DNA from: Phyllobacteriaceae bacterium
GTDB lineage: Bacteria; Pseudomonadota; Alphaproteobacteria; Rhizobiales; Rhizobiaceae
Length of the DNA: 64,000 nt
NCBI GenBank assembly: GCA_024742765.1
Contig: JANSXT010000005.1
Location: 1 to 64,000, forward strand
Reading direction: 5' to 3'
The position numbers were made by a program, and so were the translations under genes. Of the stretch, positions 26,769 to 42,260 are shown one piece after another; the stretch's first letter is position 1, and every line of letters begins with the position of its first letter. The notes beneath the pieces are model-generated. The model saw only the letters and a list, made by a program, of their open reading frames with translations, was not told where the DNA came from and ran no database searches.

Positions 26769-28058
26769 TCAACCTGACGGTTCGGGGGTGTCGGAGAGCC
26801 GGGAAATCGCGGCCGCATAGCTTTCCGCGCTGAACGTTTCCTCGACATGGAGCCGGGCCGCGGCGCTGCGCTGCGCGGCGTCTTCGGGATTTGCGCGGAT
26901 ATGGCGCAGATGGGACGCGGCGATGTCGATGTCCGGGTCGGCCCACAGGGCGTCCTTTTGCGTGTAGTTGCCTTGTGGATCATCGACCGGAACGAGCTTG
27001 GCCGGCACCGGAAATCCAGTGGAATCGTCGACGAATTCCGCTGTCGAGGACCAGTCAGTCGAGATGACCGGAATGCCACGCATCATCGCTTCAACGACCA
27101 CCAGACCGAGGCCCTCGGACCGATGCAGCGATACCACCGCGCGTGCGCGGTCGTAGAGCGCGTCGAGCGCTTCGCGTGACAGCGTTTCGCCGATCAGAGT
27201 GATGTTTCTGGCGTCGCCCACCGCTTCGCGCATCAGGCGCTCTCCCTTGGGCCAGGCAAACGCGTTTGAATATTTGACGACCAACTCGACGCTGTCATCG
27301 GCATCGCCAAATGCCTGGCGAAAGGCCTTGATGACGGCACAGGGGTTCTTTCGATAGAAGTTCGAGGACATGTTGAAAACGGTCAGCGCGACGAATTTTC
27401 CGTTGCCGATGGATGTGGCGTCGCCGGTTCGCATCGGCTTCATCGGGTAAGGGACGATGTGAACCGGCAATGGATCGGCGATCTGTCGCACCGCATTGGC
27501 CACAAAGCCGCTGTTGACGCAGATGCCGTGCAAAAAGCCGATCGATCCCCGCCATTGATCGGGGGCTCTGTCCAACTCCCAGAACCAGTGCGCCAACACA
27601 TGCTTGTCGGCGACCATTCGAGCGCCGAGCAGGCCCAGGACCGGCGCAACCCGCCCGCCGCCAATATGCACGATCAGCGTGCCCGGACCGGTCATCGTAC
27701 CGCCGTCCCGGAAGGTGAAGTCGGCCTGTTCCGGCTCGTGGATCGAGTGGCCGGTAACATCGATGCCGTAGACCTCCATGCCGGCATCGTCCAAAGCGGT
27801 GTAGCATGCTCGGGCTGCAGCCCCGAGGCCGGAGGTCTGCGTCAGAAGGCCGACGATGATGTACGGGGGACGCATTGTCGCCGACGCCGAGATTGCCGGA
27901 GGGCGCGGCGCCAGAAATCGTGTGAGCAGCGCCTCTCGAAACGCGTTCGGCATCCAGCGCCATACCGTTTGGCGGATGATGCGTTTTGCAATCGCCAGCG
28001 ATCGCCCCTTGAAGTCAGTCAATGTCCCGGACCCCGGTATTGTGATGCCGTCCGGCAC
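26769..28058 (-). CDS. Glycosyltransferase, GT4-like
   Basis: A 429-residue protein with a GT-B fold pattern. The N-terminal domain has YIIVGLLTQTSGLGAAARA; the C-terminal domain has the GT4 signature HRSEGLGLVVVEAMMRGIPVISTDWSSTAEFV, the EX7E type donor site. The C-terminus ends with an AARLHVEETFSAESYAAAI stretch usual in this family. A GTG start at 28058 has AGGAAA just upstream. It is transcribed away from the export ABC genes. Likely adds a sugar to the O-antigen or capsule; the sugar is unknown. Confidence 0.85.
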   Translation of the reverse strand: MPDGITIPGSGTLTDFKGRSLAIAKRIIRQTVWRWMPNAFREALLTRFLAPRPPAISASATMRPPYIIVGLLTQTSGLGAAARACYTALDDAGMEVYGIDVTGHSIHEPEQADFTFRDGGTMTGPGTLIVHIGGGRVAPVLGLLGARMVADKHVLAHWFWELDRAPDQWRGSIGFLHGICVNSGFVANAVRQIADPLPVHIVPYPMKPMRTGDATSIGNGKFVALTVFNMSSNFYRKNPCAVIKAFRQAFGDADDSVELVVKYSNAFAWPKGERLMREAVGDARNITLIGETLSREALDALYDRARAVVSLHRSEGLGLVVVEAMMRGIPVISTDWSSTAEFVDDSTGFPVPAKLVPVDDPQGNYTQKDALWADPDIDIAASHLRHIRANPEDAAQRSAAARLHVEETFSAESYAAAISRLSDTPEPSG

Positions 28059-28474
28059 GCTTTCCTGTGACGCTGCGCCGGGCCGCCGCCACCTATCAGC
28101 CCTCGGCGGAGATAGACATAGCTTTTGGCCAAACCATCCTCAAAAAATGCCCGTCCCAGCGACCGCGGGACCTGTTTTCACCTGCTTGCAACGGCATTTT
28201 CCGGCTTTTGATTTGCCCGTTATGTTTGCGCAGCCACAAGCTTGGCATCGATCTCCGTGTCGATGGTGTGTGGGTCCGCCGGCCGACTTCTCAGATCGAC
28301 CGGCGTTGACCCGAGGGGTTGACGCACAACACGAGCCAACCGGCCGATTTTGACGTGTTGACGAAATCTGCTTTGCGCTCTATCCGGCTGACACCTCAGC
28401 GTCAGGCAATCGTCTTGCCGGTGCGGATGCGACACTCGACCCTTGGCGTACAGGTGTCGAGGAACTGCACGGCG
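28059..28474. other. Divergent intergenic region without a recognisable gene
   Basis: These 416 bases separate the divergent glycosyltransferase and export-permease genes. Short open frames here resemble nothing I know, and the composition is more AT-rich than in the genes around it. The region holds the promoters for both sides; one candidate is listed separately. Confidence 0.5.
28358..28386 (+). promoter_or_regulatory. Candidate sigma-70 promoter for the polysaccharide export genes
   Basis: TTGACG (28358-28363) and TATCCG (28381-28386) are separated by 17 bases, about 90 bases upstream of the export permease start. Several further TTGAC copies occur just upstream. Based on sequence resemblance only. 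Confidence 0.35.
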
Positions 28475-29362
28475 ATGAGCAAGACAACGGTCGAAGGCCA
28501 ATCGGACGGACCCAACGTGGCAAACAGCTCCCGAGCTTCCGACAGCAATGACAGAACGATCCGGATTTCTGCCGACAATGTTCGGCAAATGGGCGATGCG
28601 GACCTCTGGCTTGGTCTGAAGCGGCACAATCTCTGGTGGTCGTCGGCGGTCCACGAGACCAAACAACGGTTCCGGCGATCGATGATCGGGCCATTTTGGC
28701 TGACGCTTTCGATGGGCATCTTCATCGGTGCGCTGGGTTTCGTCATGACCCGTCTTTTTGGTCAGGATCCTGCCTGGTTCGTTCCCTATCTGGCGACCGG
28801 AATCATCTTCTGGACGTTGCTGACATCGATCATCAACGAGGCGGGCACGGCGTTTGTCTCGGCAGAGGGATACATCCGGAACGTGCCCATGCCGATAAGC
28901 GTGCATTACTACCGGATGATCGCAAGGAACCTGATCATCTGGCTGCACAACATGGTGATCTATGTGCTCGTGTACCTGATCTTCAGCCATGATGTGAACT
29001 GGGCCTATCTGGCATTCATCCCCGGGTTCATCCTGTTTCTGGCCATTGCGGTGGTTGGTGGTCTTTGCGTGGCTGTGCTCTCGACCCGTTATCGTGACAT
29101 ACCGCAGGTCATCGCCAGCGTCCTTCAGGTGATCTTCTTCATCACACCGATTTTCTGGTCTGTGCAGACATTTCCTGACCGCCCGGCCTTTATCTTCTGG
29201 AACCCGGTCTATCACCTGTTGGAGATCGTCCGTGCGCCGCTGCTCGGAGCCTGGCCGGAGCCGCTGTCATGGCTTGTTTCGCTGGGGCTTCTGGCCGTTT
29301 CGATACCGTTGGCACTCTATCTGTATCGCCGCGCCTATCCGCGTATTCCCTATTGGGCCTGA
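28475..29362 (+). CDS. Polysaccharide export ABC transporter permease, Wzm/ABC-2 type
   Basis: A 295-residue ABC-2 permease with six membrane helices. The N-terminal amphipathic part reads LKRHNLWWSSAVHETKQRFRRSMIGPFWLTLS, the hallmark of Wzm/KpsM/TagG proteins; DIPQVIASVLQVIFFITPIFW in the last third is also typical. The ATG at 28475 is chosen; the frame stays open for 52 more codons upstream, but those codons show no family resemblance. The ATPase gene starts nine bases after its stop. It exports a complete polysaccharide chain across the inner membrane. Confidence 0.9.
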   Translation: MSKTTVEGQSDGPNVANSSRASDSNDRTIRISADNVRQMGDADLWLGLKRHNLWWSSAVHETKQRFRRSMIGPFWLTLSMGIFIGALGFVMTRLFGQDPAWFVPYLATGIIFWTLLTSIINEAGTAFVSAEGYIRNVPMPISVHYYRMIARNLIIWLHNMVIYVLVYLIFSHDVNWAYLAFIPGFILFLAIAVVGGLCVAVLSTRYRDIPQVIASVLQVIFFITPIFWSVQTFPDRPAFIFWNPVYHLLEIVRAPLLGAWPEPLSWLVSLGLLAVSIPLALYLYRRAYPRIPYWA

Positions 29363-29370
29363 AGGCAAAT

Positions 29371-30093
29371 ATGGCGCATCTGTCCCTCCAAAACCTGACG
29401 GTTGATTTTCCGATCTACGGGGCCAACTCCCGCTCGCTGAAGCGGCGCCTTGTCTCCCATGCAACCGGCGGGCGTATCGCCGAAGGGACCGACGACGCTG
29501 TCGTCGTCCGGGCGCTGGACGACGTTTCCATCGAGATCAAGGACGGAGACAGGATTGGCCTGGTCGGTCACAATGGCGCCGGAAAATCGACATTCCTGCG
29601 TACCGTGGCGGGGATCTACAAGCCGACAGCGGGGTCGATCACGATCACCGGCGAAGTCGGCACCCTGATCGATCCGGCGGCTGGAATGGACCCGGAAGCC
29701 ACTGGCATCGAGAACATCTATCTGCGGGGTTATGTTCTGGGCATGGACAAGGGCCAGATCGCGGATTTGATCGACGAGATTGCAGACTTCACCGAGCTCG
29801 GCGATTTTCTGGACCTGCCGGTCAAAACCTACTCCGCTGGCATGTTCTCCCGACTGGGATTTGCCGTGTCGACGGCCATCAAGCCCGATATTCTTTTGAT
29901 CGATGAGGGCATCGGCGCGGGCGACGCAGCGTTTCAGGAGCGAGCGGCCGAGCGGATCGAGGAACTCAAGCGCAACGTGCGCATCCTGGTGGTCGCCAGC
30001 CACGACAATTCCCTACTCGAAAGTCTCGGCTGTCGTCCGATCCTGTTCTCCGCCGGCAAGATTGTCGATGACGGGCGTGGAGGCGTGGGATAG
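29371..30093 (+). CDS. Polysaccharide export ABC transporter ATP-binding protein, Wzt type
   Basis: A 240-residue ATPase. Walker A is GHNGAGKST near residue 69; the signature is YSAGMFSRLGFAVSTA, typical of Wzt/KpsT, and Walker B is ILLIDEGIGAGDAAF. The protein stops right after the nucleotide-binding domain, so it lacks the C-terminal carbohydrate-binding domain some Wzt proteins use to recognise capped chains. It pairs with the permease directly upstream. The gene ends 12 bases from the convergent IclR regulator. Confidence 0.92.
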   Translation: MAHLSLQNLTVDFPIYGANSRSLKRRLVSHATGGRIAEGTDDAVVVRALDDVSIEIKDGDRIGLVGHNGAGKSTFLRTVAGIYKPTAGSITITGEVGTLIDPAAGMDPEATGIENIYLRGYVLGMDKGQIADLIDEIADFTELGDFLDLPVKTYSAGMFSRLGFAVSTAIKPDILLIDEGIGAGDAAFQERAAERIEELKRNVRILVVASHDNSLLESLGCRPILFSAGKIVDDGRGGVG

Positions 30094-30105: not shown

Positions 30106-30912
30106 TCAGCGGGCGGGCTGGGCCAGCGAATGGCCGGCGGCGAATGTCACGAGCCTGCGCACGGCATCGGACTGCGCCTCGGTCAGGCCGGCATCGGTGC
30201 CGATCAGCGTCACCACTGCCTGCGCTTCGTCCTGCCAGTCCAGAACGGGGGCGGCGATGGCGACAAGGCCGGGGATGAACCGGCTATCGACGCTGGCATA
30301 GCCATTGTCCCGCATCGTCTGCTTCAGAGCCGCCAGGCCCCGCGCGCTGGTGTCCAGATCGCGGAAGAGATTGGGATTGCTCCGCGCCTGGCGCAGTTCG
30401 CGGTCCAGCATGGGCTGGATGAGGCGCGGCGGCGCCCATGCGAGAAAGGCGCGGCCCGTGGCCGAATTGAGCAGCGGCAGGGTCGTGCCAAGGCCCATCG
30501 AGGTGATCGTCGGTGAGGCCGTGCGCTCCCATCTGACGACGGTGGCGCCCTGGTCGCCCCAGACGGACAAGAGGCCCGTCAGCCCGGTTTCCGCACACAG
30601 TTCGGGCAGCGCCTCGGCGGTCCGATTGACGAAGTCGTAGCGGGCAATCGCGGCGAGGCCGAGCTTGGCCGCGCCGGGGCCGAGATCATATTTGCCCGAG
30701 CGTCCGGCCTGTTCGACAAGGCCGGCATGGATGAACGAGGCCAGATAGCGATGCGCCTTGGACAGCGGCATGTCGCAGTCGCGCGCAATCTCCGACAGCG
30801 AGACCGCGCGGCCATAGCCGGCCATGGAGCGCAGCAGCCGCAGCGCCGCATCGAGTGACTGGATGCCGCCGGAGGTTTCCGTGCTCCTTGCCTTATTGCC
30901 GGTGGTCGCCAT
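30106..30912 (-). CDS. IclR-family transcriptional regulator
   Basis: A 268-residue regulator. Helix-turn-helix: SLDAALRLLRSMAGYGRAVSLSEIARDCDMPLSKAHRYLASF; the C-terminal effector domain carries the family's SATGRAFLAW, YASVDSRFIPGLVAIAAPV segments. IclR proteins often sense aromatic acids or their CoA esters. Here the gene overlaps the thioesterase gene by 20 bases and is divergent from the ligase-hydroxylase gene, so it most likely controls the gentisate pathway of this block. Confidence 0.9.
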   Translation of the reverse strand: MATTGNKARSTETSGGIQSLDAALRLLRSMAGYGRAVSLSEIARDCDMPLSKAHRYLASFIHAGLVEQAGRSGKYDLGPGAAKLGLAAIARYDFVNRTAEALPELCAETGLTGLLSVWGDQGATVVRWERTASPTITSMGLGTTLPLLNSATGRAFLAWAPPRLIQPMLDRELRQARSNPNLFRDLDTSARGLAALKQTMRDNGYASVDSRFIPGLVAIAAPVLDWQDEAQAVVTLIGTDAGLTEAQSDAVRRLVTFAAGHSLAQPAR

Positions 30913-31318
30913 CCGGTTCCAGAATCGCCCGCAGGGTTTGCATGTCGGCGGCGATCATACCGGCTTTGGCCTTGGCGAACAGTCCCCTGGTTTCCCGGCC
31001 GGTCGCCATGAGCCGGTCGCCTGCGCGGATCTCGTAGGCGAGCACAAGCGCTTTTGCCTGCCAGCGTTCGATCGTCAGCGTGACGGTCAGATCATCGCCA
31101 TTGCGGATCGGCCGGACGAATTTGGCCGAGACATCCATCAGCCCGATGCCGACAGCATCGAGCTTGTGGCACAGCGCATCGTGGCCGCTGAAACCCCACA
31201 GCCAGTCGTGAAAGGCGCGATCGAGCCAGGACAGGATGTTGGGATAGTAGGCGATGCCCGCCGGGTCGCAATCGCCGAAGCTGACACGGACGGGAAAACG
31301 GTGGATGGGCTCTGTCAT
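30893..31318 (-). CDS. Hot-dog acyl-CoA thioesterase, 4-hydroxybenzoyl-CoA thioesterase family
   Basis: A 141-residue hot-dog fold thioesterase. The active-site motif SFGDCDPAGIAYYPNILSWLDRAFHDWL contains the catalytic Asp of the 4HBT family, and AKFVRPIRNGDDL follows. Divergent by 84 bases from the aryl-CoA ligase/hydroxylase fusion, it is the obvious candidate for releasing gentisate from gentisyl-CoA. Substrate is inferred from context; the family assignment is clear. Confidence 0.88.
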   Translation of the reverse strand: MTEPIHRFPVRVSFGDCDPAGIAYYPNILSWLDRAFHDWLWGFSGHDALCHKLDAVGIGLMDVSAKFVRPIRNGDDLTVTLTIERWQAKALVLAYEIRAGDRLMATGRETRGLFAKAKAGMIAADMQTLRAILEPDGDHRQ

Positions 31319-31319
31319 G

Positions 31320-31367
31320 ATTTCATAATAAGAAAGCTATTGCATGATATGGAAATCTCTGTATCTT
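31320..31367. promoter_or_regulatory. Divergent promoter with candidate IclR operator
   Basis: This 84-base gap is conspicuously AT-rich. TTGCAT (31340-31345) and TATCTT (31362-31367), 16 bases apart, form a candidate plus-strand promoter 35 bases before the fusion gene start. ATTTCATA (31320-31327) and TATGGAAAT (31348-31356) form an imperfect inverted repeat overlapping it, a plausible regulator site. Confidence 0.4.
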
Positions 31368-31402
31368 CCCGCCTCACGCTTGTCGAGAGGGAAGGGAGGA
31401 TC

Positions 31403-34135
31403 ATGGGCGGTTTGTCGAAGGTCGAGATTCTGGGCGGGGGACCGGCCGGGCTTTACACGGCGATCCTGATGCGGCGCCTGATGCCCAATGTCCGGGTGCG
31501 CGTGACCGAGCAGAACCCGGTGGGCGCGACGTTCGGCTTTGGCGTCGTCTTTTCCGACCAGGCGCTCGATTTCCTGAAGGCCGACGATCCCGACATTCAC
31601 GATCTGGTCACGCCGCACATGGAGCGGTGGGAGAACATGACGCTGAACCTGCCCGGCGGCCGGGTGGTGCTGGACGGGGTCGGCTTTGCGGCGGTCGGGC
31701 GGCTCGAACTCAACGAGATCCTGCGCAAGCATGCCGATGCGCTCGGCGTCGAGATGCGCTTTTCGCATCATGTGGCCGCATTGGACGAACTGGACGCCGA
31801 CCTGATCGTCGGCGCGGACGGGCTCAACTCGCTGGTGCGGCAGTCGCTCGAGACCGCGTTCCAGCCGACGATCGAATATTTCGACAATCACTTCGCCTGG
31901 TTTGGAACCAACCAGCCGTTCGACACACTGACGCAGAGCTTCGTCAAAACCGATCGCGGCGCCTTCAACGCCCACCATTACCGGTTTGCGCCCGACCGCA
32001 GCACCTTCATCGTCGAGTGCGACGCGCCCACCTTCAAGGCCCATGGGTTCGATTCCATGGGCGAGGATGAGAGCGCCGCACTTTGCGGCGACATCTTCGC
32101 AGACGTGCTGGACGGCGCGCCGCTGGTGACCAACAAGTCGATGTGGCGCTGGTTCCCGCGCCTGTGGTGCAAGAACTGGGTGGCGGGGCGCCATGTGCTG
32201 CTGGGCGATGCGGTGCACACGGCGCATTTCTCGATCGGCTCGGGCACGCGGCTTGCCATGGAAGATGCGATCGCGCTCGTCCGGTCGCTGGCCGCCAACA
32301 AGGACATCGACGAGGCGCTGGCGGTCTACCAGAAGGAGCGCCAGCCGATCGCCCGCAAGATCGTCGATGCGGCCAACACCTCGGCCACATGGTATGACGG
32401 CTTTGCCGGCAAGATGGACATGGCGCCGCTCGATTTCGCCTTCGACTATATGACCCGGTCGGGCCGCGTCGACATGGACCGGCTGCGCACCATCGCGCCG
32501 CAATTCATGGCGCGCTATGAGGCGGAAAAGGCAGCGTCTCCGGACGCCATCGTCGACCCGGTCGGCGACGAGACGCCCGGCGCGGCGGAGATCGGCTTCG
32601 ACAAGGCCGCGCACCCCAATTGTTCGGCGATCCTGTGGGACAATCTGGACCGCAATCCCGACAAGCCGGCGGTGATCGGGCCCGGCGGAACGATGAGCTA
32701 TCGCGAGCTGGCGGCAGAAGCTGCGCGCTGGGGCCATGCCTTTGCCGGTGCCGGCCTTGAGCGTGGCGACCGCATTCCGATGTTCCTCGATGACACGCCG
32801 GTCTATCCGGCCGCGTTTTTCGGCGCGGTGCGTGCCGGCTTCGTGCCGGTCCTGCTGAACATCCAGACACCGCCGGACGTGCTGAACTTCTTCCTCAAGG
32901 ACACCGGCGCGCGGATCGCGGTCTGCGAAGCGGCGCTGGCCGACCGGTTTGCCGGCGAAACGCTGGAAGGCACGGCGCTTGAAACGCTCGTCATCGCCAA
33001 TGGCGCGGCCGGCGGGGGCGGCCAGATCGCGGCCGAAACGTTTGTCTCGGGACAGCCCGAAACGCTCGATTGCGCCGACACCGGCCCGGACGACATGGCC
33101 TTCTGGATGTATTCGTCCGGCTCGACCGGGAGGCCAAAGGGCGTCGTCCATCTGCATCACGACATGGCCTACACCCAGGCCTCGTTCGGCGACCATGTGC
33201 TGAAGCTGCGCGCGGACGATATCTGCTTTTCGGTGCCCAAGCTCTATTTCGCATACGGCTTCGGCAACGCGATCACCTTCCCGTTTTCGGTGGGCGCGAC
33301 ATCGCTTCTGATGCCCGGCCAGCCGCAGGCCGACCGCGTGCTCGACATGATCGAACAATGGCGCCCGACGGTCCTGTTCGGATTGCCGACGCTTTACACC
33401 GCGCTGGCGCGGGCAGAAGCGCTGAACGAGCGCGACCTGTCATCGCTGCGCCAGTCCATGTCGGCGGCCGAAGTGCTGTCCGAAGATGTCTACAACGCCT
33501 GGAAGGCGCGCACCGGCCATGGCCCGACCGAGGGGCTCGGCTCGACGGAGATGCTGCACATCTATTTGTCCAACGCGCTCGACGATCATCGCCTGGGCGC
33601 GGCGGGCAAGCGCGTGCCGGGCTATGAGGTGCGGCTCGATACGGTCGATGGCAAGCCGGCCGGCCCGGGCGAAGAGGGCGTGATGCTGGTGCGCGGCCAT
33701 TCGTCTGCGCCGAGCTATTGGCGCCGGCCCGACAAGACTCGCGACACGATGCGCGGCGACTGGCTCTATACGGGCGACCGCTTCATCGAAAGGGACGGGT
33801 TTTTCTACTTCCAGGGGCGGGCCGACGATCTGATCAAGGTGTCGGGCCAGTGGGTCTGGCCGCTGGAGGTCGAGCGCTGCCTGAACGAGCATCCGGATGT
33901 GCATGAATGCGCTGTGCTGGCGCAGGAACTTCCCGACAGGCGCATGACGCTCAGAGCCGTCGTCCGGCTCCGCGATGCGGGCAACCAGTCCGAGACCCAG
34001 AGCGACCGGCTGCGCGACTTCGTCAAGGCGCGCCTGCAGCCTTACAAATATCCGCGCATCATCGACTACACCGACGAATTGCCGAAAACCGGGACGGGCA
34101 AGATCGACCGTCACGCGCTTCGCGAAGCGCGATGA
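31403..34135 (+). CDS. Fusion of aryl-CoA (salicyl-CoA) 5-hydroxylase and benzoate/salicylate-CoA ligase
   Basis: A 910-residue two-enzyme protein. Residues 1 to about 390 are a flavin monooxygenase: GGGPAGLYTA (11-20) for FAD, LIVGADGLNSLVRQ (about 133-146), LLGDAVHTAHFSIGSGTRLAMED (GD motif). They resemble salicyl-CoA 5-hydroxylase and the N-half of anthraniloyl-CoA monooxygenase. From about residue 402 (HPNCSAILWDNLDRNPDKPAVI) to the end it is an adenylate-forming ligase of the benzoate-CoA ligase group: YSSGSTGRPKG near 570, LGSTEMLHIYLSN, YTGDRF and KTGTGKIDRHALRE with the catalytic Lys. The ATG at 31403 has GGGAGGA just upstream; the long open frame before it is non-coding. Gentisate dioxygenase downstream points to salicylate as substrate; 2-aminobenzoate or another benzoate remains possible. 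Confidence 0.85.
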   Translation: MGGLSKVEILGGGPAGLYTAILMRRLMPNVRVRVTEQNPVGATFGFGVVFSDQALDFLKADDPDIHDLVTPHMERWENMTLNLPGGRVVLDGVGFAAVGRLELNEILRKHADALGVEMRFSHHVAALDELDADLIVGADGLNSLVRQSLETAFQPTIEYFDNHFAWFGTNQPFDTLTQSFVKTDRGAFNAHHYRFAPDRSTFIVECDAPTFKAHGFDSMGEDESAALCGDIFADVLDGAPLVTNKSMWRWFPRLWCKNWVAGRHVLLGDAVHTAHFSIGSGTRLAMEDAIALVRSLAANKDIDEALAVYQKERQPIARKIVDAANTSATWYDGFAGKMDMAPLDFAFDYMTRSGRVDMDRLRTIAPQFMARYEAEKAASPDAIVDPVGDETPGAAEIGFDKAAHPNCSAILWDNLDRNPDKPAVIGPGGTMSYRELAAEAARWGHAFAGAGLERGDRIPMFLDDTPVYPAAFFGAVRAGFVPVLLNIQTPPDVLNFFLKDTGARIAVCEAALADRFAGETLEGTALETLVIANGAAGGGGQIAAETFVSGQPETLDCADTGPDDMAFWMYSSGSTGRPKGVVHLHHDMAYTQASFGDHVLKLRADDICFSVPKLYFAYGFGNAITFPFSVGATSLLMPGQPQADRVLDMIEQWRPTVLFGLPTLYTALARAEALNERDLSSLRQSMSAAEVLSEDVYNAWKARTGHGPTEGLGSTEMLHIYLSNALDDHRLGAAGKRVPGYEVRLDTVDGKPAGPGEEGVMLVRGHSSAPSYWRRPDKTRDTMRGDWLYTGDRFIERDGFFYFQGRADDLIKVSGQWVWPLEVERCLNEHPDVHECAVLAQELPDRRMTLRAVVRLRDAGNQSETQSDRLRDFVKARLQPYKYPRIIDYTDELPKTGTGKIDRHALREAR

Positions 34136-34231: not shown

Positions 34232-35197
34232 ATGCAACTAGCAAGAAACGTGATGGCGGCGCTCGTGTCGCTGGGTCTGACGGGCGCTGCGGCCGCGCAG
34301 GTCAGTTCGATCTCGACACCGCCGCAGGGCTCGGTCTGGAACACGATGGGCTCGGTGATCGCCGGCCAGGTGCGCGAGAGCGCCAACATGGCGATGGTCG
34401 TGCAACCCTATGGCGGCAATGCGCAGATGATGCAGTCGGTCAATGAGGGGTTGGCCGAGTTCTCGCTCAACGACGTCAACGATGTGATCACCGCCGTCGA
34501 AGGCAGCGGCGAATATTCGACCGCGATGCCCAATCTGCGCGTCATCGCGCGCATCAATCCGTTCCCGGTCGGGCTCTATGTCAAGGAAAGCGCGGGGATC
34601 ACATCGGTCGCCGAGCTTGCGGGAAAAAGCGTTCCGTCGGGCTGGGACGCATTTCCCATCGCCCGCTCGCACATCACCGCCATTCTGGCGGCCGGCGGGC
34701 TGACCTGGGACGATGTCCGTCAGGTGCCGGTGCCCGAACTGATCCGCGGATCGGACGATATGGCGTCGGGCCGGGTCGACAGCGCTTTCTTCGCCGTGGG
34801 TGGGCCGAAGGTGGCCGAAGTGGACGCGTCGGTGGGCGGCGTGCGGTTCCTGACGGTCGAGGCCAATGACGAGACGCTGGCGAAGATCCAGGAGGTTCGC
34901 CCGGCCTTCTATTTCCTCGAAGTGGCGCCTGCGCCGCCGCGTGTCGGCGTCAAGGAGCCGATGATGTTCGTCACATGGGACAATGTCATGGTGGCGGGCA
35001 CGCACGTCACCGACGAGCAGGTCACGACCCTTTTGACCGTGCTGTTCGATGAGGCCGAAGCGATCGGCAACGCCTATCCGCCGCTGCGCGCGCTCAATCT
35101 TGAGACGGCTTACAAGGACTATCCGGGGCTCGAATACCACCCCGCCGCGATCGCCTTCTTCGAAGGACGCGGCGTGGCGCAGGCTCCCGCGGACTGA
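34232..35197 (+). CDS. TAXI-type TRAP transporter solute receptor
   Basis: A 321-residue periplasmic binding protein of the TAXI family (TRAP-associated extracytoplasmic immunogenic). A Sec signal (MAALVSLGLTGAAAAQ) precedes the mature part; SISTPPQGSVWNTMGSVIAGQV, LAEFSLNDVNDV and LAGKSVPSGWDAF are in the conserved TAXI positions. A strong GGGAGGA ribosome site is present. It lies between the ligase-hydroxylase fusion and the matching membrane protein, so it should bind the aromatic acid that the operon degrades. Confidence 0.88.
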   Translation: MQLARNVMAALVSLGLTGAAAAQVSSISTPPQGSVWNTMGSVIAGQVRESANMAMVVQPYGGNAQMMQSVNEGLAEFSLNDVNDVITAVEGSGEYSTAMPNLRVIARINPFPVGLYVKESAGITSVAELAGKSVPSGWDAFPIARSHITAILAAGGLTWDDVRQVPVPELIRGSDDMASGRVDSAFFAVGGPKVAEVDASVGGVRFLTVEANDETLAKIQEVRPAFYFLEVAPAPPRVGVKEPMMFVTWDNVMVAGTHVTDEQVTTLLTVLFDEAEAIGNAYPPLRALNLETAYKDYPGLEYHPAAIAFFEGRGVAQAPAD

Positions 35198-35214
35198 TCA
35201 CGGCCTTTGCCGGA

Positions 35215-35230
35215 CGGCGCGAAAGCGCCG
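35215..35230 (+). other. Intergenic stem-loop between TRAP receptor and permease genes
   Basis: CGGCGC-GAAA-GCGCCG, a perfect 6-bp stem with a GNRA tetraloop. Such hairpins after binding-protein genes often stabilise the upstream mRNA, giving more receptor than permease. No T-run follows, so it is not a full terminator. Confidence 0.45.
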
Positions 35231-35257
35231 CCCGGCCCTTTGGTTCAGGACATCAGC

Positions 35258-37216
35258 ATGGCGACCGATGACATATCGCAGACGTCCGGCAATGTGGTGC
35301 CGGGCGGCCCAAGGCGGCTGACCGCGCTGACGGCCGCGCTTGGCGGCGCGCTGACGCTGGTGTCGCTCGGGCAGGCCGCCGATGTCGGCTCGCGGCTGGG
35401 CTATTCCTACTACACCGAGCAGTTCCTCGCCGTGGTGCTGGGGCTGAGCCTCGGGCTCGTCTTTTTCGGCGAGCGCGGCGCGCGCGGCAAGGCCGGCAGC
35501 TTTGCCCGGGTTCTCGATCTGGTTCTCGGGACGGCCGGGCTGGCATTGTCGTTTTACGTGGCGTGGGCCTATCCCTCGCTGGTCGGGCGGGCGATGATGC
35601 TGCCGTGGGACGCGCTGATTGCGGGCAGCGTGCTGTTCGTCCTCGTCCTTGAAGCGCTCCGGCGCTGTGTCGGCTGGGTGCTGGTCATCGTGGTCCTGGT
35701 GATCTGCGGCTACGGGCTGATCGGCCATCTGGTGCCCGGCGCTCTGCAGACGCGCGAGGTCGCGCCGCCGCGCATGGCGGTCTATCTGGCGTTCGATCCC
35801 AACGGCCTTCTCGGCCTGACGCTAAATGTCGCCGCGACCGTGGTCGTCGCCTTCGTCTTCTTTGGTCAGGTGCTTTTGCATTCGGGCGGCGCCAGTTTCT
35901 TCAACGATATCGCCACCGCGACCATGGGCCGGCAGCGCGGCGGCGCGGCCAAGATCTCGATCGTCGCCTCGGGCCTGTTCGGTTCGATCTCCGGGGTTGT
36001 CGTCTCCAACATCGTGGCGACCGGCATCGTCACGATCCGGCTGATGATCGCTTCGGGTTTCCGCCGTGTCAGTGCGGCGGCCGTCGAAGCCGTCGCCTCC
36101 ACCGGCGGCCAGATCGCGCCGCCCGTCATGGGCGCGGTCGCCTTCCTGATGGCCGATATTCTGCAAAAGCCCTATTCGGAGATCGTGGTCGCCGCGATCG
36201 TTCCGGCGCTGCTATATTATGTGTCGCTGTTCGCACAGACCGACCTTCTGGCCGCCAAGCAGGACATCAAGCCGGTGGACGCCGACCAGGTGCCGAAAGC
36301 ATCGACCGTCATGTCGCGGGGATGGATTTTCATCCTGCCGTTCGCCGCCATCATCATCGCCCTGTTCTGGTTCAACCAGCGGGCGGAAACGGCGGCCCTT
36401 TGGGGCGGTGCGGCGGCGCTTCTGGTCGGCCTGTTCATCGGCTATGGCGACGAGAAGATGCGGCTGCGTCACCTTTGGGAATGCGCGGTCGAGACCGGCA
36501 CGGCGATCACCGACATCATCCTGATCTCCGCGGCGGCCGGCTTCATCATCGGTGTTCTCAACGTCACGGGCCTTGGCTTTGCCGTCACCCATGCGCTGGT
36601 CGATCTGGGCCAGGGCAATCTGTTCGTCCTCTTGCTGATCTCCGCTGCCGTCTGCCTGGTGCTCGGCATGGGCATGCCGACGGTGGGTGTCTATCTGCTG
36701 TTGGCCGTTCTGGTGGCGCCGTCGCTGGTGGAGTCCGGTGTGGAACCGATCGCCGCGCATCTGTTCATCTTCTATCTGGGCATGATGTCGATGGTCACGC
36801 CGCCGGTCGGCATCGGCGCGTTCTTTGCCGCCTCCATCGCCAAGGCGCCGCCCATGGCAACGGCTTTCGAATCCATGCGCTTTGGCTGGACCGCCTATAT
36901 CGTGCCGTTCCTGTTCGTCTTCTCGCCGGCGCTGTTGCTGATCGGCAATCCGCTGGAGATCGTGATCGCGGTGTCGACGGCGATCCTGGGCGTCTATGCC
37001 ATCTCGGCGGCGTTCGTCGGCTGGCTGCACGGCCCGGCGGGCAGCGCGCGGCGGATCGCGATCGCCGCGGCCGGCGCCGCGCTGTTGCTGCCGCCCGGTG
37101 TTGGCGGCGATGCGACGCTCTGGATCAACGGCGCCGGACTGGCCGCGCTCGCGCTGCTGTGGAGCACCGGACGCGCCGCCGCCCGGCGCGCCATGGCCGG
37201 GGAGATCGGGCAATGA
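35258..37216 (+). CDS. TRAP transporter fused permease (4TM/12TM, DctQM fusion)
   Basis: A 652-residue membrane protein with about 16 or more hydrophobic segments, the fused small and large subunits typical of TAXI-TRAP systems. FGSISGVVVSNIVATGIVTIRLM, AVEAVASTGGQIAPPVMGAVAFLMAD and VLGMGMPTVGVYLLLAVLVAPSL are hallmark DctM-like motifs, and MSMVTPPVGIGAFFAASIA follows. The ATG at 35258 is chosen with AGGA eight bases upstream. It couples uptake of the TAXI ligand to an ion gradient. Confidence 0.92.
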   Translation: MATDDISQTSGNVVPGGPRRLTALTAALGGALTLVSLGQAADVGSRLGYSYYTEQFLAVVLGLSLGLVFFGERGARGKAGSFARVLDLVLGTAGLALSFYVAWAYPSLVGRAMMLPWDALIAGSVLFVLVLEALRRCVGWVLVIVVLVICGYGLIGHLVPGALQTREVAPPRMAVYLAFDPNGLLGLTLNVAATVVVAFVFFGQVLLHSGGASFFNDIATATMGRQRGGAAKISIVASGLFGSISGVVVSNIVATGIVTIRLMIASGFRRVSAAAVEAVASTGGQIAPPVMGAVAFLMADILQKPYSEIVVAAIVPALLYYVSLFAQTDLLAAKQDIKPVDADQVPKASTVMSRGWIFILPFAAIIIALFWFNQRAETAALWGGAAALLVGLFIGYGDEKMRLRHLWECAVETGTAITDIILISAAAGFIIGVLNVTGLGFAVTHALVDLGQGNLFVLLLISAAVCLVLGMGMPTVGVYLLLAVLVAPSLVESGVEPIAAHLFIFYLGMMSMVTPPVGIGAFFAASIAKAPPMATAFESMRFGWTAYIVPFLFVFSPALLLIGNPLEIVIAVSTAILGVYAISAAFVGWLHGPAGSARRIAIAAAGAALLLPPGVGGDATLWINGAGLAALALLWSTGRAAARRAMAGEIGQ

Positions 37217-37271: not shown

Positions 37272-37967
37272 ATGTCCCATATCTTCGAACCGGCTCCTGT
37301 CCCCACGATCGCGGTGGCCGACAGCGACGATCTTGTGCCGGTGCGCCGCATCTTCTGCGTCGGCCGCAACTATGCCGCCCACGCACGCGAGATGGGGCGC
37401 GATCCCGATCGCGAGCCGCCCTTCTTCTTCACCAAGCCGGCCGATGCGGTCGTCATGGATGGCGAGACCGTGGCCTATCCGCCGGAGACGGAGAATTTCC
37501 ACTATGAAGCCGAACTGGTGGTCGTCATAGGCAAGGGCGGACGGAACATCGCCGAAGCCGATGCCCCGTCCTATGTCTGGGGCTATGCGGTGGGCAACGA
37601 TCTGACGCGCCGCGACCTGCAACTGGCCGCGCGGGAACTCGGCCGGCCCTGGGACATGGGCAAGGCGTTCGACCGGTCGGCGGTGATCGGGCCGGCCCAC
37701 CCGGCATCCGATGTCGGCCATCCGGACAAGGGTTCCATCCGGCTGACGGTCAATGGCGAGACGCGGCAGGATGCCGATCTGTCGGAGCTGATCTGGTCGG
37801 TGCCGGAGGTCGTCTCCATCCTGTCGCACTCGATCGCGCTCAAGCCCGGCGACCTGATCATGACGGGGACGCCGGCCGGTGTCGGCCCGCTAATGGAAGG
37901 CGATGTCTGCGTGGTCACCATCGAAGGACTTGGCGAAATCACCACCACGATCGGACCGCGCGGATAG
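37272..37967 (+). CDS. Fumarylacetoacetate hydrolase-family protein, fumarylpyruvate hydrolase
   Basis: A 231-residue FAH-fold hydrolase. RRIFCVGRNYAAHAREMG is the start of the catalytic domain; PETENFHYEAELVVVIGKGGRNI holds the metal Glu ligands; WGYAVGNDLTRRDLQ and LIMTGTPAGVGPL complete the family pattern. In gentisate pathways this enzyme splits 3-fumarylpyruvate into fumarate and pyruvate. The ATG at 37272 is taken, leaving a 55-base gap after the TRAP gene; an open frame upstream has no resemblance. Cytoplasmic. Confidence 0.88.
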   Translation: MSHIFEPAPVPTIAVADSDDLVPVRRIFCVGRNYAAHAREMGRDPDREPPFFFTKPADAVVMDGETVAYPPETENFHYEAELVVVIGKGGRNIAEADAPSYVWGYAVGNDLTRRDLQLAARELGRPWDMGKAFDRSAVIGPAHPASDVGHPDKGSIRLTVNGETRQDADLSELIWSVPEVVSILSHSIALKPGDLIMTGTPAGVGPLMEGDVCVVTIEGLGEITTTIGPRG

Positions 37968-37971
37968 GCCG

Positions 37972-38619
37972 ATGACCCTCAAGCTGCACAATTATTTTCG
38001 CTCGTCCACGTCGGTCCGGTTGCGCGTTGCGCTCAATCTCAAGGGCGTGGACTACGATTACGTTTCCTATGCGCTGCGCACGCAGGAGAACCGTTCACCG
38101 GGCTTTCTGGCGCTCAATCCGCAAGGGCTTGTCCCGGCGCTTGAACTTGAGGACGGCACCGTGCTGACCCAGTCGCTGGCGATCATCGAATGGCTCGACG
38201 AAACCCGGCCGGAGCCGGCGCTGCTGCCATCCGATCCGGAAGGCCGGGCCCGCGTGCGCGCGCTCTCCTACATGATCGCCTGCGAGGTGCATCCGCTCAA
38301 CAATCTGCGCGTCCTCAACCATTTGGCCGGGCGTTTCGGCACCGACGCGGCCGGGCAGAAAGAATGGTTCACCCATTGGGTGACGACCACGTTCGACCCG
38401 CTGGAAGCCATGCTCGCCGGCGATCCCGCAACCGGTCCGTTCTGCCATGGCGAGACGCCGAGCATGGCGGACATCTGCCTTTACGCGCAGGTCTGGAACA
38501 ACAAGCGCTTTGCGATCGACACCGCGCAATGGCCGACGATCGCGGCGATCTTCGAGCGGCTCGATGCGATCGATGCTTTCCGCAAGGCCGCCCCGCCCAA
38601 CCAGCCCGACGCGACCTGA
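37972..38619 (+). CDS. Maleylpyruvate isomerase, GST zeta class (glutathione-dependent)
   Basis: A 215-residue glutathione transferase-fold protein: LHNYFRSSTSVRLRVALNLKGVDYDYV at the N-terminus with the SSxSxRVR-type glutathione and catalytic motif of zeta GSTs, then LNPQGLVPALELEDGTVLTQSLAIIEWLDE. It resembles maleylacetoacetate/maleylpyruvate isomerases (NagL type) that turn maleylpyruvate into fumarylpyruvate using glutathione. It starts four bases after the hydrolase gene, as expected for consecutive steps. Confidence 0.85.
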   Translation: MTLKLHNYFRSSTSVRLRVALNLKGVDYDYVSYALRTQENRSPGFLALNPQGLVPALELEDGTVLTQSLAIIEWLDETRPEPALLPSDPEGRARVRALSYMIACEVHPLNNLRVLNHLAGRFGTDAAGQKEWFTHWVTTTFDPLEAMLAGDPATGPFCHGETPSMADICLYAQVWNNKRFAIDTAQWPTIAAIFERLDAIDAFRKAAPPNQPDAT

Positions 38620-38650: not shown

Positions 38651-39757
38651 ATGAGCCAGCCCGCAACGCACGAAACCGTCGAGCATGCCATGCAGCCCGA
38701 GGACACGCCGGAACTGCGGGCGCTCTATCGCGGTTTCGAAGACAATCATCTGATCCCGCTATGGACGCAGATCGGCGATCTGATGCCGATCCACCCCAAG
38801 CCGCGCGCCGTCGCCCATGTCTGGAAATGGTCATCGCTTCTGCCGCTGGCGGAAAAATCGGGCGAACTGGTGCCTGTCGGCCGCGGCGGCGAGCGCCGGG
38901 CCATCGGGCTCGCCAACCCGGGCCTTGGCGGCCATGCCTATGTCAGCCCGACCCTGTGGGCGGCGATCCAGTATCTGGGTCCGCGCGAAACGGCGCCCGA
39001 ACACCGCCATTCGCAGAACGCCTTCCGTTTCATCGTCGAGGGCGAGGGCGTCTGGACCGTCGTCAATGGCGATCCGGTGCGGATGAGCCGCGGCGATCTG
39101 CTCCTGACGCCGGGCTGGTATTTCCACGGCCATCACAATGACACCGACAAGCCGATGGCCTGGATCGACGGGCTCGACATCCCGTTCTCGCAGCAAAACG
39201 ATGTGGGCTTTTTCGAGTTCGGTTCGGACCGCGTCACTGACTATGCAACGCCGCGCTTTTCGCGGGGCGAGCGGCTCTGGTGCCATCCGGGCCTGCGGCC
39301 GCTGTCGGGCCTGAAGGACACGGTCAGCACACCCATCGGTGCCTATCGCTGGGAGCATACCGACCGGGCACTGACCGAGCAGTTGCTCCTGGAAGAAGAG
39401 GGTCAGCCGGCCACCGTCGAGCAGGGGCATGCGGCGGTGCGCTATGTCAATCCGACGACCGGCGGCGATGTGATGCCGACGATCCGCTGCGAGTTCCATC
39501 GCCTGCGCGAAGGCACCAAGACACCGGCGCGCCGGGAGGTCGGCTCGACGGTCTTCCAGGTGTTCGACGGGCGCGGGTCGGTTGTCATGGACGGCGTCGA
39601 GCACAGGATCGACATTGGCGACATGTTCGTCATCCCGTCCTGGATCGAATGGTCGCTGCAGGCCGAGACGCGGTTCGACCTGTTCCGCTTTTCCGATGCG
39701 CCGATCATGGAGCGCCTGCATTTCGCGCGAACCCATGTGGACGAAGGCGACCGGTGA
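38651..39757 (+). CDS. Gentisate 1,2-dioxygenase
   Basis: A 368-residue bicupin. YRGFEDNHLIPLWTQIGDLMP near the N-terminus is typical of gentisate dioxygenases; the first cupin has EHRHSQNAFRFIVEGEGVWTVVNGDPVRMSRGDLLLTPGWYFHGHHN with the iron His residues; a second cupin (VFQVFDGRGSVVMDG.EHRIDIGDMFVIPSW) lies at the C-terminus. It opens the ring of gentisate between C1 and C2 to give maleylpyruvate. The ATG at 38651 follows a good GGAGG. This is the gene that fixes the pathway as gentisate-based. Confidence 0.93.
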   Translation: MSQPATHETVEHAMQPEDTPELRALYRGFEDNHLIPLWTQIGDLMPIHPKPRAVAHVWKWSSLLPLAEKSGELVPVGRGGERRAIGLANPGLGGHAYVSPTLWAAIQYLGPRETAPEHRHSQNAFRFIVEGEGVWTVVNGDPVRMSRGDLLLTPGWYFHGHHNDTDKPMAWIDGLDIPFSQQNDVGFFEFGSDRVTDYATPRFSRGERLWCHPGLRPLSGLKDTVSTPIGAYRWEHTDRALTEQLLLEEEGQPATVEQGHAAVRYVNPTTGGDVMPTIRCEFHRLREGTKTPARREVGSTVFQVFDGRGSVVMDGVEHRIDIGDMFVIPSWIEWSLQAETRFDLFRFSDAPIMERLHFARTHVDEGDR

Positions 39758-40413
39758 GCGACACGCTTGATAAGGCGCGCGCCGCGCTGCGGCAAAGGCA
39801 GGGCGCAGGCGCCCGCTATGACGCGGAGCGCGCCCCGGCGGTTGAGCTTGACTGGGCGCGGCGCGGGACGGCCTATTTCGCGCGGTTGCTCAACGGGTTG
39901 AGCGATGCGGATCTGGATGCGCCGTCCCGGCTTGACGGGGTTTCCCGGCGCCATGTGGTCGCCCATGTCGGCTATCACGCCCGCAAAATGTCGGACATCG
40001 TCTCCTGGGCCCGGCAAGGGAAGGGCGACCCCATGCCGGACGCCTTGCTGCTCGATGGGGATGATGTGGCCGCGCGTGCGACCCAGCCGGCCCGGGCGCT
40101 GCGCAACCTCTTTGCCCATGCTGGCGTCCATCTGAATGTCGAATGGCGCGATCTCGGCGATGCGGAATGGGACGTCACCGTCACCGATGTCGAGGGCCGC
40201 AGCCTTGCAGTGCGCGAAACGCCATGGCTGCGCGCCCGGACGATCTGGCTGTCTGCCCTCGACCTCGATGCCGGCGGACGGCTGGCCGACGCACCGCCGG
40301 AGTTCGTCGAACGGCTGGCGCAAACGGGCGACCTTGATCGGGCCACTGGGCAGGAAGGCCTGGCGCACGCGGAGATGGGCGCCAGCGGCCACGAGCGTTT
40401 TGCGGCGTTGTGA
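39754..40413 (+). CDS. DinB-like maleylpyruvate isomerase-family protein
   Basis: A 219-residue DinB/YfiT-type four-helix protein of the mycothiol-dependent maleylpyruvate isomerase family: LSDADLDAPSRLDGVSRRHVVAHVGYHARKM contains the metal-site His residues, and WLRARTIWLSALDLDAG the later part. A GTG start overlaps the stop of the dioxygenase gene (GTGA). Actinobacterial relatives use mycothiol, which this organism is not expected to make, so the thiol or function may differ. It duplicates the reaction assigned to the GST-type enzyme two genes upstream. Confidence 0.78.
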   Translation: MSDTLDKARAALRQRQGAGARYDAERAPAVELDWARRGTAYFARLLNGLSDADLDAPSRLDGVSRRHVVAHVGYHARKMSDIVSWARQGKGDPMPDALLLDGDDVAARATQPARALRNLFAHAGVHLNVEWRDLGDAEWDVTVTDVEGRSLAVRETPWLRARTIWLSALDLDAGGRLADAPPEFVERLAQTGDLDRATGQEGLAHAEMGASGHERFAAL

Positions 40414-40461: not shown

Positions 40462-41682
40462 CTAAGATACGCCCGAACCGGTCTCCGAGAGCACGGTTGA
40501 CAGCTTTGCCATCAAATTGCCGCCCTCGAAAAGAAAGCCGGGAATGCCCGCAGCCGAAGCCGCGTCCAAGTCTTTTTGGCGATCTCCGATCAGAAACGAT
40601 CTTTGCCGGTCGACAGGCCAACGCTCGAGCAAATCCCTGATCATGCCCGGTTCTGGCTTTCTGTCCTTGCAAGCCACTTTGTACTCTGACCGGGCAGCAT
40701 CGGGGTGATGCGGGCAATATCGAAAATCGTCAATGTGCGCGCCTTGTGCTCCAAGCTCCAAATTGAACCATTCGTGAAGCGCGCGAACATCACTTTCCTC
40801 ATAATACCCATGCGCAACGCCGGCCTGATTGGTCACCACGAACACGTAGTAGCCAAGGCCGTTGAGCGTCTTCACGGCCTCGACCGCGCCATCGATCCAG
40901 CGGATCTGATCCGGCTGGTTGGCGTAACCGATATCCACGTTCAAAACGCCGTCGCGATCCAGAAAAGCAGCCGGTCTCCGGCGTATGTCGGGCAACAGCG
41001 ATTGTGCCCGCTGAAGGTCTTCCGGCACGCCGATGTCGATGAACGGAGCATCATACGCCCGACCGCCGAGGAGCTGGTTGTCAATCAATGCGGGAAAGAC
41101 TTGTTCTTCAAGCGATGAACGGCCCGCCGGCAGAAACTCGAGCACTCTTTTCGAAAGCAGGTACGTACCGGCATTTATTAGACCACTTCGTGCCGTAGAC
41201 GACCGGCTTATCTCAGTCACCAGTCCGTCGTTGTCCAAGTGCACCAGGCCGTACCGGCTGGCGTTCGATGTTTCGCGCAAAGCCATCCGCCCAACCAGAT
41301 CTCCTGGCAGGGTTTGCAGATCAAGCATGTTGATCGGGAAGTAGGTGTCGCCGTTGGCAAGAAAAAAGCTCGAAGCCAACTCGTCTTTGGCATCTTGCAG
41401 GGCTCCGCCGGTGCCCATCGCGCTGGGCTCGACATGAACCCTGACAATCGCCCTGCCGAACGTGTGGCCGTGATAGCGGCGATAGATCTGATCGCCGTGG
41501 TAACCGGCCAGAATGAGGATGTCGGTGAAGCCGAACCGTGCCACCTCCTCCATCTGCCACTCCAGATAGGGGCGTCCAGCAACCGGCATCAGCGGTTTGG
41601 GCGTGTCCGTGGTGAGATCACCGAGACGGGTCCCGCGGCCGCCCGCAAGTATCACATATTGTGAGGCCGGTCGGACGGGCAT
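40462..41682 (-). CDS. Fused D-glycero-D-manno-heptose-1-phosphate nucleotidyltransferase / heptose bisphosphate phosphatase (HddC-GmhB type)
   Basis: A 406-residue bifunctional protein. Residues 1 to about 225 are a sugar nucleotidyltransferase ([29 protein letters not shown], then [11 protein letters not shown] and NAGTYLLSK). The second half is a GmhB-type HAD phosphatase: [32 protein letters not shown], and [14 protein letters not shown] with [11 protein letters not shown]. The zinc-binding loop reads CPHHP then CKD where GmhB normally has CxC, so one of the four ligands is Asp. The start at 41682 overlaps the gmhA stop (TGATG). It makes GDP-heptose after dephosphorylation of the 1,7-bisphosphate. 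Confidence 0.85.
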
Positions 41683-42260
41683 CAGGAGCCAATCAGCTCC
41701 TGTTCGATACGCGCGCACATGAAGTGGTAGAGGCAAAGATGGATCTGTTGAATGGCGGGCGTCGACGAACTGTCGACTGCGAGCAGATGATCACACAGTT
41801 CGGCCATCTTTCCGCCGCCGCGTCCGGTCAGGCCGATTGTCGTCATGCCGTTCGCCTTGGCGGCAGAAAATGCCGCAACGACATTTTTGGAGTTGCCGGA
41901 TGTCGAAAGGCCGATCACGACACCTGCCATCTGTCGATAGGCTTCGATCTGGCGCGCGAAGACGGTATCGAAGCTGTAGTCATTGCTCCAAGAGGTCAGT
42001 ACAGCAGGATTGGAGGAAAGGCAGACGGCGGGAATGGCTTCTCGCTCTTTGAGAAAGCGGCCGACCAATTCTCCAACGATGTGCTGGGCATCCGCTGCAG
42101 AGCCGCCATTGCCACAGACAAGGATCAGCTTTCCGGATCGCACGACCGTGCATACCGCGTCGACGGCTCTTTCCATCGTATCGGCCATATTCTGATCGTC
42201 AGTGATGGCCAAAAGTGACCGCGCGTCCTCCAACCAACTGGTGAGTTGCAGACGTTCCAT
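41682..42260 (-). CDS. gmhA: Sedoheptulose-7-phosphate isomerase
   Basis: A 192-residue SIS-domain isomerase that converts sedoheptulose 7-phosphate to D-glycero-D-manno-heptose 7-phosphate, the first step of heptose synthesis. [23 protein letters not shown] is the GmhA signature, and [20 protein letters not shown] and [23 protein letters not shown] follow. The ATG at 42260 gives the usual length. It is coupled to the nucleotidyltransferase-phosphatase fusion downstream. Confidence 0.92.

Follow-up and report, generated by a model that had tools for sequence, protein, structure and literature searches.

The gene described here occupies positions 31403 to 34135 on the plus strand of a 64,000-nucleotide stretch of DNA (the window; positions 1 to 64,000 of contig JANSXT010000005.1) from a Phyllobacteriaceae bacterium (assembly GCA_024742765.1). 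Its translation is a single uninterrupted frame of 910 amino acids with its sole stop at the end, in which a flavin hydroxylase (residues about 1-379) is followed by an enzyme of the benzoate-coenzyme A (CoA) ligase type (residues about 405-910). Judged by sequence comparison, the gene probably encodes a bifunctional salicylate enzyme, a natural fusion of a CehH-like aryl-CoA 5-hydroxylase and a CehG-like aryl-CoA ligase; residues 1-379 of the annotated cehH product are 70% identical to it, and residues 6-530 of the cehG product 73%. A first-pass annotation of the DNA had proposed an unbroken gene carrying both enzymes, with domain limits at 1 to about 390 and about 402-910. The open fusion is also present in a congener (G001, 94% identity) and in many relatives, the domain identities are borne out by NCBIfam and Pfam profiles, and the limits hold to within about 15 residues. 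A sequencing frameshift or chimera was rejected as an explanation because the same open fusion is conserved in the congener and in many other genomes. The ratio of nonsynonymous to synonymous substitution (dN/dS, NG86 method) between the window gene and that of G001 is about 0.08 in each domain, and both domains are under purifying selection; the value of 0.18 across 30 junction codons comes from too few codons to be weighed.

The hydroxylase domain was recognized by the NCBIfam profile PRK08255 at residues 6-379 (whole-protein E 2.8e-114), with a score of 382.8 bits against a membership cut-off of 1078 and coverage of positions 2-387 only of the 768 in the profile. The ligase domain exceeds the cut-off of the benzoate-CoA ligase family TIGR02262 (482.9 bits against 375.25; residues 416-909, profile positions 15-508 of 508). 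Pfam places FAD_binding_3 at residues 6-323, AMP-binding at 413-773 and AMP-binding_C at 822-900. By sequence, the solved proteins closest to the C-terminal part are benzoate-CoA ligases, and the one closest to the N-terminal part is VioD. Four motifs, YSSG.T..PKG, GLGSTE, PKTGTGK and GDA.HTAH, which we take to be ligase and flavin motifs, are invariant in 36 aligned fused proteins. An AlphaFold model built from 36 sequences has a mean predicted local distance difference test (pLDDT) score of 82.2, with values partly below 50 in the ligase motif loops, and a predicted template modelling (pTM) score of 0.58, so that it can be used for the fold of each domain but not for how the two are placed relative to each other. 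A Foldseek search with this model returned the same two kinds of fold as the sequence search; an anthranilate-CoA ligase (4wv3) headed the list, ahead of benzoate-CoA ligases.

The start was placed at 31403 because residue 1 of the Agrobacterium cehH product and of an annotated fused Nitratireductor protein both align there; an upstream start at 30824, which opens a longer frame of 1103 amino acids, was rejected on the same grounds. The sequence GGAGGA ends two bases before the ATG at 31403, a shorter spacing than is usual for a ribosome-binding site. An antisense open frame of 673 codons lies opposite the fused gene (31337-33358, minus strand); it shows no sign of being a gene and is probably a by-product of high G+C codon use.

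The junction (residues 376-404; 32528 to 32614, plus strand) starts with the last few residues of the hydroxylase and continues as the N-terminal arm of the ligase (DPV...IGFDK), which is present in split ligases too. A single polypeptide is the expected product, since no start codon accompanied by a Shine-Dalgarno-like 4-mer was found in the junction of any of 51 fused loci, a test that leaves aside starts lacking such a 4-mer. Were the protein cleaved, or the ligase started internally, two separate enzymes would exist in the cell and the fusion would be merely genetic. In favour of this alternative, the junction is short and made of the ligase's own arm, and the window does have an ATG at residue 369; given the result for the 51 loci it is nevertheless very improbable.

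Upstream of the fused gene, on the minus strand, lie a hotdog acyl-CoA thioesterase gene, probably for a CehI-like gentisyl-CoA thioesterase (30893 to 31318; Pfam 4HBT_2, E 2.3e-11), and, overlapping it, a gene for an IclR-family regulator (30106 to 30912; Pfam HTH_IclR and IclR_C). The divergent spacer contains a promoter-like site for the fused gene, found by eye (TTGCAT - 16 nucleotides - TATCTT; 31340 to 31367, plus strand). Its TTGCA is retained in all 11 aligned divergent spacers, and the -10-like part in some only. Downstream on the plus strand are a TAXI-family TRAP solute-binding protein (34232 to 35197; TIGR02122, 119.7 bits against 84.35), for which an aromatic acid is the inferred substrate, and a TRAP transporter fused permease (35207 to 37216; TIGR02123, 532.1 bits against 320.65). 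They are followed by an FAA-hydrolase family protein, probably fumarylpyruvate hydrolase (37272 to 37967; Pfam FAA_hydrolase, E 5.8e-65), a maiA-type isomerase of glutathione S-transferase fold, probably maleylpyruvate isomerase (37972 to 38619; TIGR01262, 256.9 bits against 171.05), a gentisate 1,2-dioxygenase-like cupin (38669 to 39757, with homology from 38669 and the true start slightly upstream) and a DinB-like putative maleylpyruvate isomerase (39754 to 40413; Pfam MDMPI_N, E 1e-17). The catabolic cluster is flanked, at 26769-30093 and 40462-41736, by what are apparently surface polysaccharide genes: a glycosyltransferase-like frame, a galactan-type export ATPase (below its profile cut-off) and a protein combining a nucleotidyltransferase with a HAD-type hydrolase.

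This arrangement corresponds to a gene series on the Agrobacterium tumefaciens plasmid NZ_CP048525, which runs IclR, cehI, cehH, cehG, FAH, maiA, cupin and MDMPI; the identities to the window proteins are, in that order, 59, 48, 70, 73, 79, 69, 83 and 49%. On the plasmid, cehI is annotated as a gentisyl-CoA thioesterase, cehH as a salicylyl-CoA hydroxylase and cehG as a salicylyl-CoA ligase. The window thus holds the gene set of the ceh salicylate pathway, with homologues of the hydroxylase, ligase and thioesterase together with gentisate cleavage genes. The first-pass annotation had related the gene to the established CoA-dependent salicylate route; the domains support that pathway type, from salicylate to gentisate, and the synteny with the annotated cehI-cehH-cehG operon strengthens it.

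The same domain order, suggested earlier as something to look for in other genomes, was found widely. A scan of genome contigs with the fused protein as query matched 170 loci; among the best 79 of these, 49 were fused, 28 had the two genes adjacent but separate in the same order, and 2 lacked an adjacent hydroxylase. Because the loci retained were those that matched a fused query best, the shares tilt toward fusion. Rhodobacterales or Hyphomicrobiales account for 47 of the 49 fused relatives, and by family the 49 hosts comprise Roseobacteraceae (13), Paracoccaceae (12), Rhizobiaceae (9), Phyllobacteriaceae (4), Stappiaceae (2) and others (9). One fused gene (L060) comes from a metagenome bin titled Gammaproteobacteria, by transfer or mis-binning. 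In all, 88 loci were classified, with 51 fused, 35 split and adjacent (two of these rows duplicate a genome) and 2 without an adjacent hydroxylase; the domains of fused and unfused relatives are mostly 58-94% identical to those of the window. Among 61 genomes (the window's own and 60 relatives), 5 had the one-piece fusion and 6 a hydroxylase beside a ligase, as read from the junctions. At a threshold of E <= 1e-140, matches were found in 26 of 394 genomes sampled from the family (14 in one piece, 10 in two pieces, 1 with the hydroxylase only, and 1, G775, with both parts in a 972-residue frame with a longer joint), in 14 of 385 from the class (in one piece in the window's own genome only) and in 14 of 398 from the phylum (2 in one piece). 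Among matching plasmid records (E <= 1e-60), 57 of 193 cover at least 80% of the query at one place, fused and adjacent forms being pooled; a scan of viral contigs returned no relative. The pathway is thus patchily distributed, but the fusion is common within it.

Two types can be told apart among the 28 split loci. In 11, an ATGA joins the ligase start to the hydroxylase stop; the other 17, of the annotated ceh type, are called gap-type here, with 9-110 nucleotides from the stop to the first possible ligase start in 15 of them and a start at or before the stop in 2. Because the junction of the fused protein is an N-terminal arm that split ligases already have, fusion needed little beyond the loss of a stop, and the simplest reading of the sequences is that it arose in this way between neighbouring genes already in the same order. 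The earlier observation that the hydroxylase stands first and the ligase second holds, but it calls for no functional reason, since it mirrors the order of the genes in the operons of split relatives.

The direction of change was examined in quick trees of both domains joined and of each domain, and in a careful tree of the hydroxylase alone; each was rooted on one split row, several inner forks are open, and the bootstrap of the careful tree had not settled. Of the 11 overlap-type splits, ten (to the extent that they were used) branch at the base. The remaining one, from Vannielia (L105), falls within the fused group, and the fused gene of Amorphus (L073) lies among those basal splits. Both placements call for additional events; the joined-domain trees require 4 changes and the quick ligase tree 6. 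The gap-type splits fall within the fused group. In the careful hydroxylase tree (16 of the 17 used) they group with the fused L043 at support values of 99/92, inside a clade of 52 rows at 99/94, and in the quick ligase tree they share a set of 21 rows with the fused L040, L043, L059 and L093 (Shimodaira-Hasegawa-like approximate likelihood ratio test, 99). A constraint by which a single branch separates all fused rows from the rest was rejected by the approximately unbiased test (p 9e-61; 1e-4 without Amorphus and Vannielia). The simplest reading is that overlapping genes fused, and that the cehH/cehG pair, with its gap, came from at least one subsequent split; that the two-gene pair is a secondary split of an ancestral fused gene is rather likely.

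Two loci call for caution about this reading. In Sulfitobacter sp. M05 (L059, 7001-8125) and Lutimaribacter pacificus (L093, 7001-8122), a stand-alone second hydroxylase lies ahead of the fused gene, 60 and 59% identical, respectively, to the fused hydroxylase. At L059 it is the stand-alone hydroxylase that falls with the cehH clade, and not the hydroxylase of the fused gene, whereas the ligase falls with cehG; this indicates that domains have been exchanged there.

The domains, gene order and conservation, the synteny with annotated ceh genes and the existence of two-gene relatives suggest how the catalytic activities, substrate and regulation might fit together. The C-terminal ligase would adenylate salicylate with ATP and form salicyl-CoA, which the N-terminal flavin domain would hydroxylate at C5, using NAD(P)H and O2, to give gentisyl-CoA. 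The divergently encoded thioesterase would release gentisate, and the downstream cupin, isomerase and hydrolase would convert it to fumarate and pyruvate. The TRAP system would import the substrate, and the IclR protein would control the divergent promoter.

Several observations weigh against this assignment or against extending it to every relative. The names cehG, cehH and cehI come from NCBI annotation, and a search of the open-access literature turned up no paper from which they derive. The window cupin scores below the cut-off of the gentisate dioxygenase family TIGR02272 (261.2 against 442.1), and the family profiles do not separate 2-, 3- and 4-hydroxybenzoate as substrates. For 43 fused relatives 16 kb or more of DNA was available, and 18 of them lack a nearby gentisate-dioxygenase-like gene; 17 of these 18 genomes carry such a cupin elsewhere, one 81% identical to that of the window and the others 29-37%, so not all fused enzymes need make gentisate. 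At two loci (L063 and L070) the neighbours are branched-chain-type ABC transporter genes, which argues against one function for all.

Salicylate is nevertheless the best guess for the substrate, favoured by the synteny with the ceh operon. The same chemistry could converge on gentisyl-CoA or another hydroxylated aryl-CoA from 3-hydroxybenzoate (by 6-hydroxylation) or 4-hydroxybenzoate (by 1-hydroxylation with a side-chain shift). Gentisate cleavage genes are compatible with any of these hydroxybenzoates, and the ligase does match the HbdA 3-hydroxybenzoate-CoA ligase profile NF053567, though far below its cut-off (372.9 bits against 1000). A haloarchaeal route from 4-hydroxybenzoate also passes through gentisyl-CoA; a search of the open-access literature for it found no paper. 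However, the operon-level match is with genes annotated as salicylyl-CoA enzymes, and the same operon, with split genes, occurs in Pseudaminobacter salicylatoxidans, a species with a dioxygenase that acts on salicylate according to PMC11264262. A substrate of this kind is accordingly considered unlikely. The first-pass annotation had listed anthranilate beside salicylate, and an anthranilate enzyme (2-aminobenzoyl-CoA 5-hydroxylase/ligase) would yield 5-hydroxyanthranilate. The top Foldseek match is the anthranilate-CoA ligase AuaEII (4wv3), and the hydroxylase falls with the PRK08255 type, which we take to be the 2-aminobenzoyl-CoA monooxygenase/reductase type. In the sequence search, however, AuaEII comes slightly below benzoate-CoA ligases (343.4 against 353.0 bits, a narrow margin), and the downstream window genes are of gentisate type. 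The same genome has, on contig 41 (L110, 22000-41000), a separate locus with a PRK08255 hydroxylase-reductase (1314.4 bits against the cut-off of 1078), a CoA ligase, an enoyl-CoA hydratase, an acyl-CoA-dehydrogenase-like protein, kynureninase and a urea/branched-chain-type ABC transporter. This gene set fits the 2-aminobenzoyl-CoA pathway as outlined in part of PMC4539516, and L110 is a probable anthranilate locus. Its resemblance to that route makes anthranilate less likely for the fused enzyme, and while salicylate keeps its place from the earlier proposal, an anthranilate enzyme in the window has hardly any likelihood. The genome thus pairs one hydroxylase family with two fusion partners, a ligase in the window and a reductase on contig 41.

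A further possibility is that the window cupin cleaves salicylate directly; the fusion would then not be needed. At locus L083, Pseudaminobacter salicylatoxidans DSM 6986 encodes a protein with 82% identity to this cupin. The gene for the L083 protein follows separate cehH and cehG genes in an operon of ceh type, and the protein is identical in 367 of 368 residues to the solved structure 2phd, titled gentisate 1,2-dioxygenase. The window cupin keeps the Fe ligands His119, His121 and His160 as well as Arg83, Arg127, Trp104 and Asp174, residues whose roles in the Pseudaminobacter dioxygenase are treated in parts of PMC11264262 and PMC10306065. At position 106 it has Ala, where the Pseudaminobacter enzyme has Gly; the effect of this residue is taken from a title cited within PMC11264262. 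Among the 39 operon cupins that share 74% identity or more (L083, L107, the window and 36 others), 38 have Ala106, including one that is 99.2% identical; Gly also occurs in four distant cupins (35-37%; two from one genome). Direct cleavage in Pseudaminobacter may have come about recently, through one substitution in a gentisate dioxygenase, and because position 106 is Ala it is less likely for the window cupin.

Whether salicylate activation and hydroxylation gain from being joined is a separate matter. The first-pass annotation had taken the fusion as a hint of direct transfer of the CoA ester between the active sites, of which neither the sequence nor the model gives a sign. It is doubtful that salicyl-CoA is handed from ligase to hydroxylase within the molecule and, at once, that the fused state is ancestral to the cehH/cehG pair; of the two parts, the secondary split is better supported than the hand-over, and if it is right the fusion is dispensable. 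The natural occurrence of fused and unfused versions of two consecutive enzymes makes the value of fusion, and the direct passing of the CoA ester, measurable. No description of a fused aryl-CoA hydroxylase-ligase was found in the open-access PMC literature, in which few searches were aimed at fusions and which leaves out subscription papers. One-gene forms in the matching plasmid records are mostly named only 'benzoate-CoA ligase family protein', as is the fused gene of Nitratireductor sp. OM-1, which has TRAP genes in the same order as the window; since such names hide the hydroxylase half, CoA-dependent salicylate degradation may be under-recorded.

Known systems share parts of this design. 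The solved TIGR02262 enzymes 4eat, 4rlf and 4zjz are 38-39% identical to the ligase domain in Foldseek alignments, but are chains of about 520 residues, whereas the window ligase sits fused behind a hydroxylase. The bifunctional salicylyl-CoA 5-hydroxylase/oxidoreductase of PRK08255 shares the hydroxylase family and is likewise a fusion, but its C-terminal partner is an old-yellow-enzyme-type reductase instead of a ligase. The sdg pathway of Streptomyces sp. WA46, with the hydroxylase sdgC, is likewise a CoA-dependent route from salicylate to gentisate; its enzymes are reportedly separate proteins. A section of PMC13215587 has sdgC converting salicylyl-CoA to gentisyl-CoA, and part of PMC516016 describes a gentisyl-CoA thioesterase within a gentisate cluster in Bacillus halodurans. 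Salipiger abyssi (NZ_CP015090), where CehH and CehG are named, is 68.6% identical over the whole. The closest counterpart is the Agrobacterium CehH and CehG pair, which shares its order and surrounding operon with the window. There, however, the two are separate genes with 116 nucleotides between their annotated ends, as had been expected of the named counterparts, whereas the window has one polypeptide and, in addition, a TRAP transporter. What the window holds is a known pathway in a conserved, fused form and not a new pathway.

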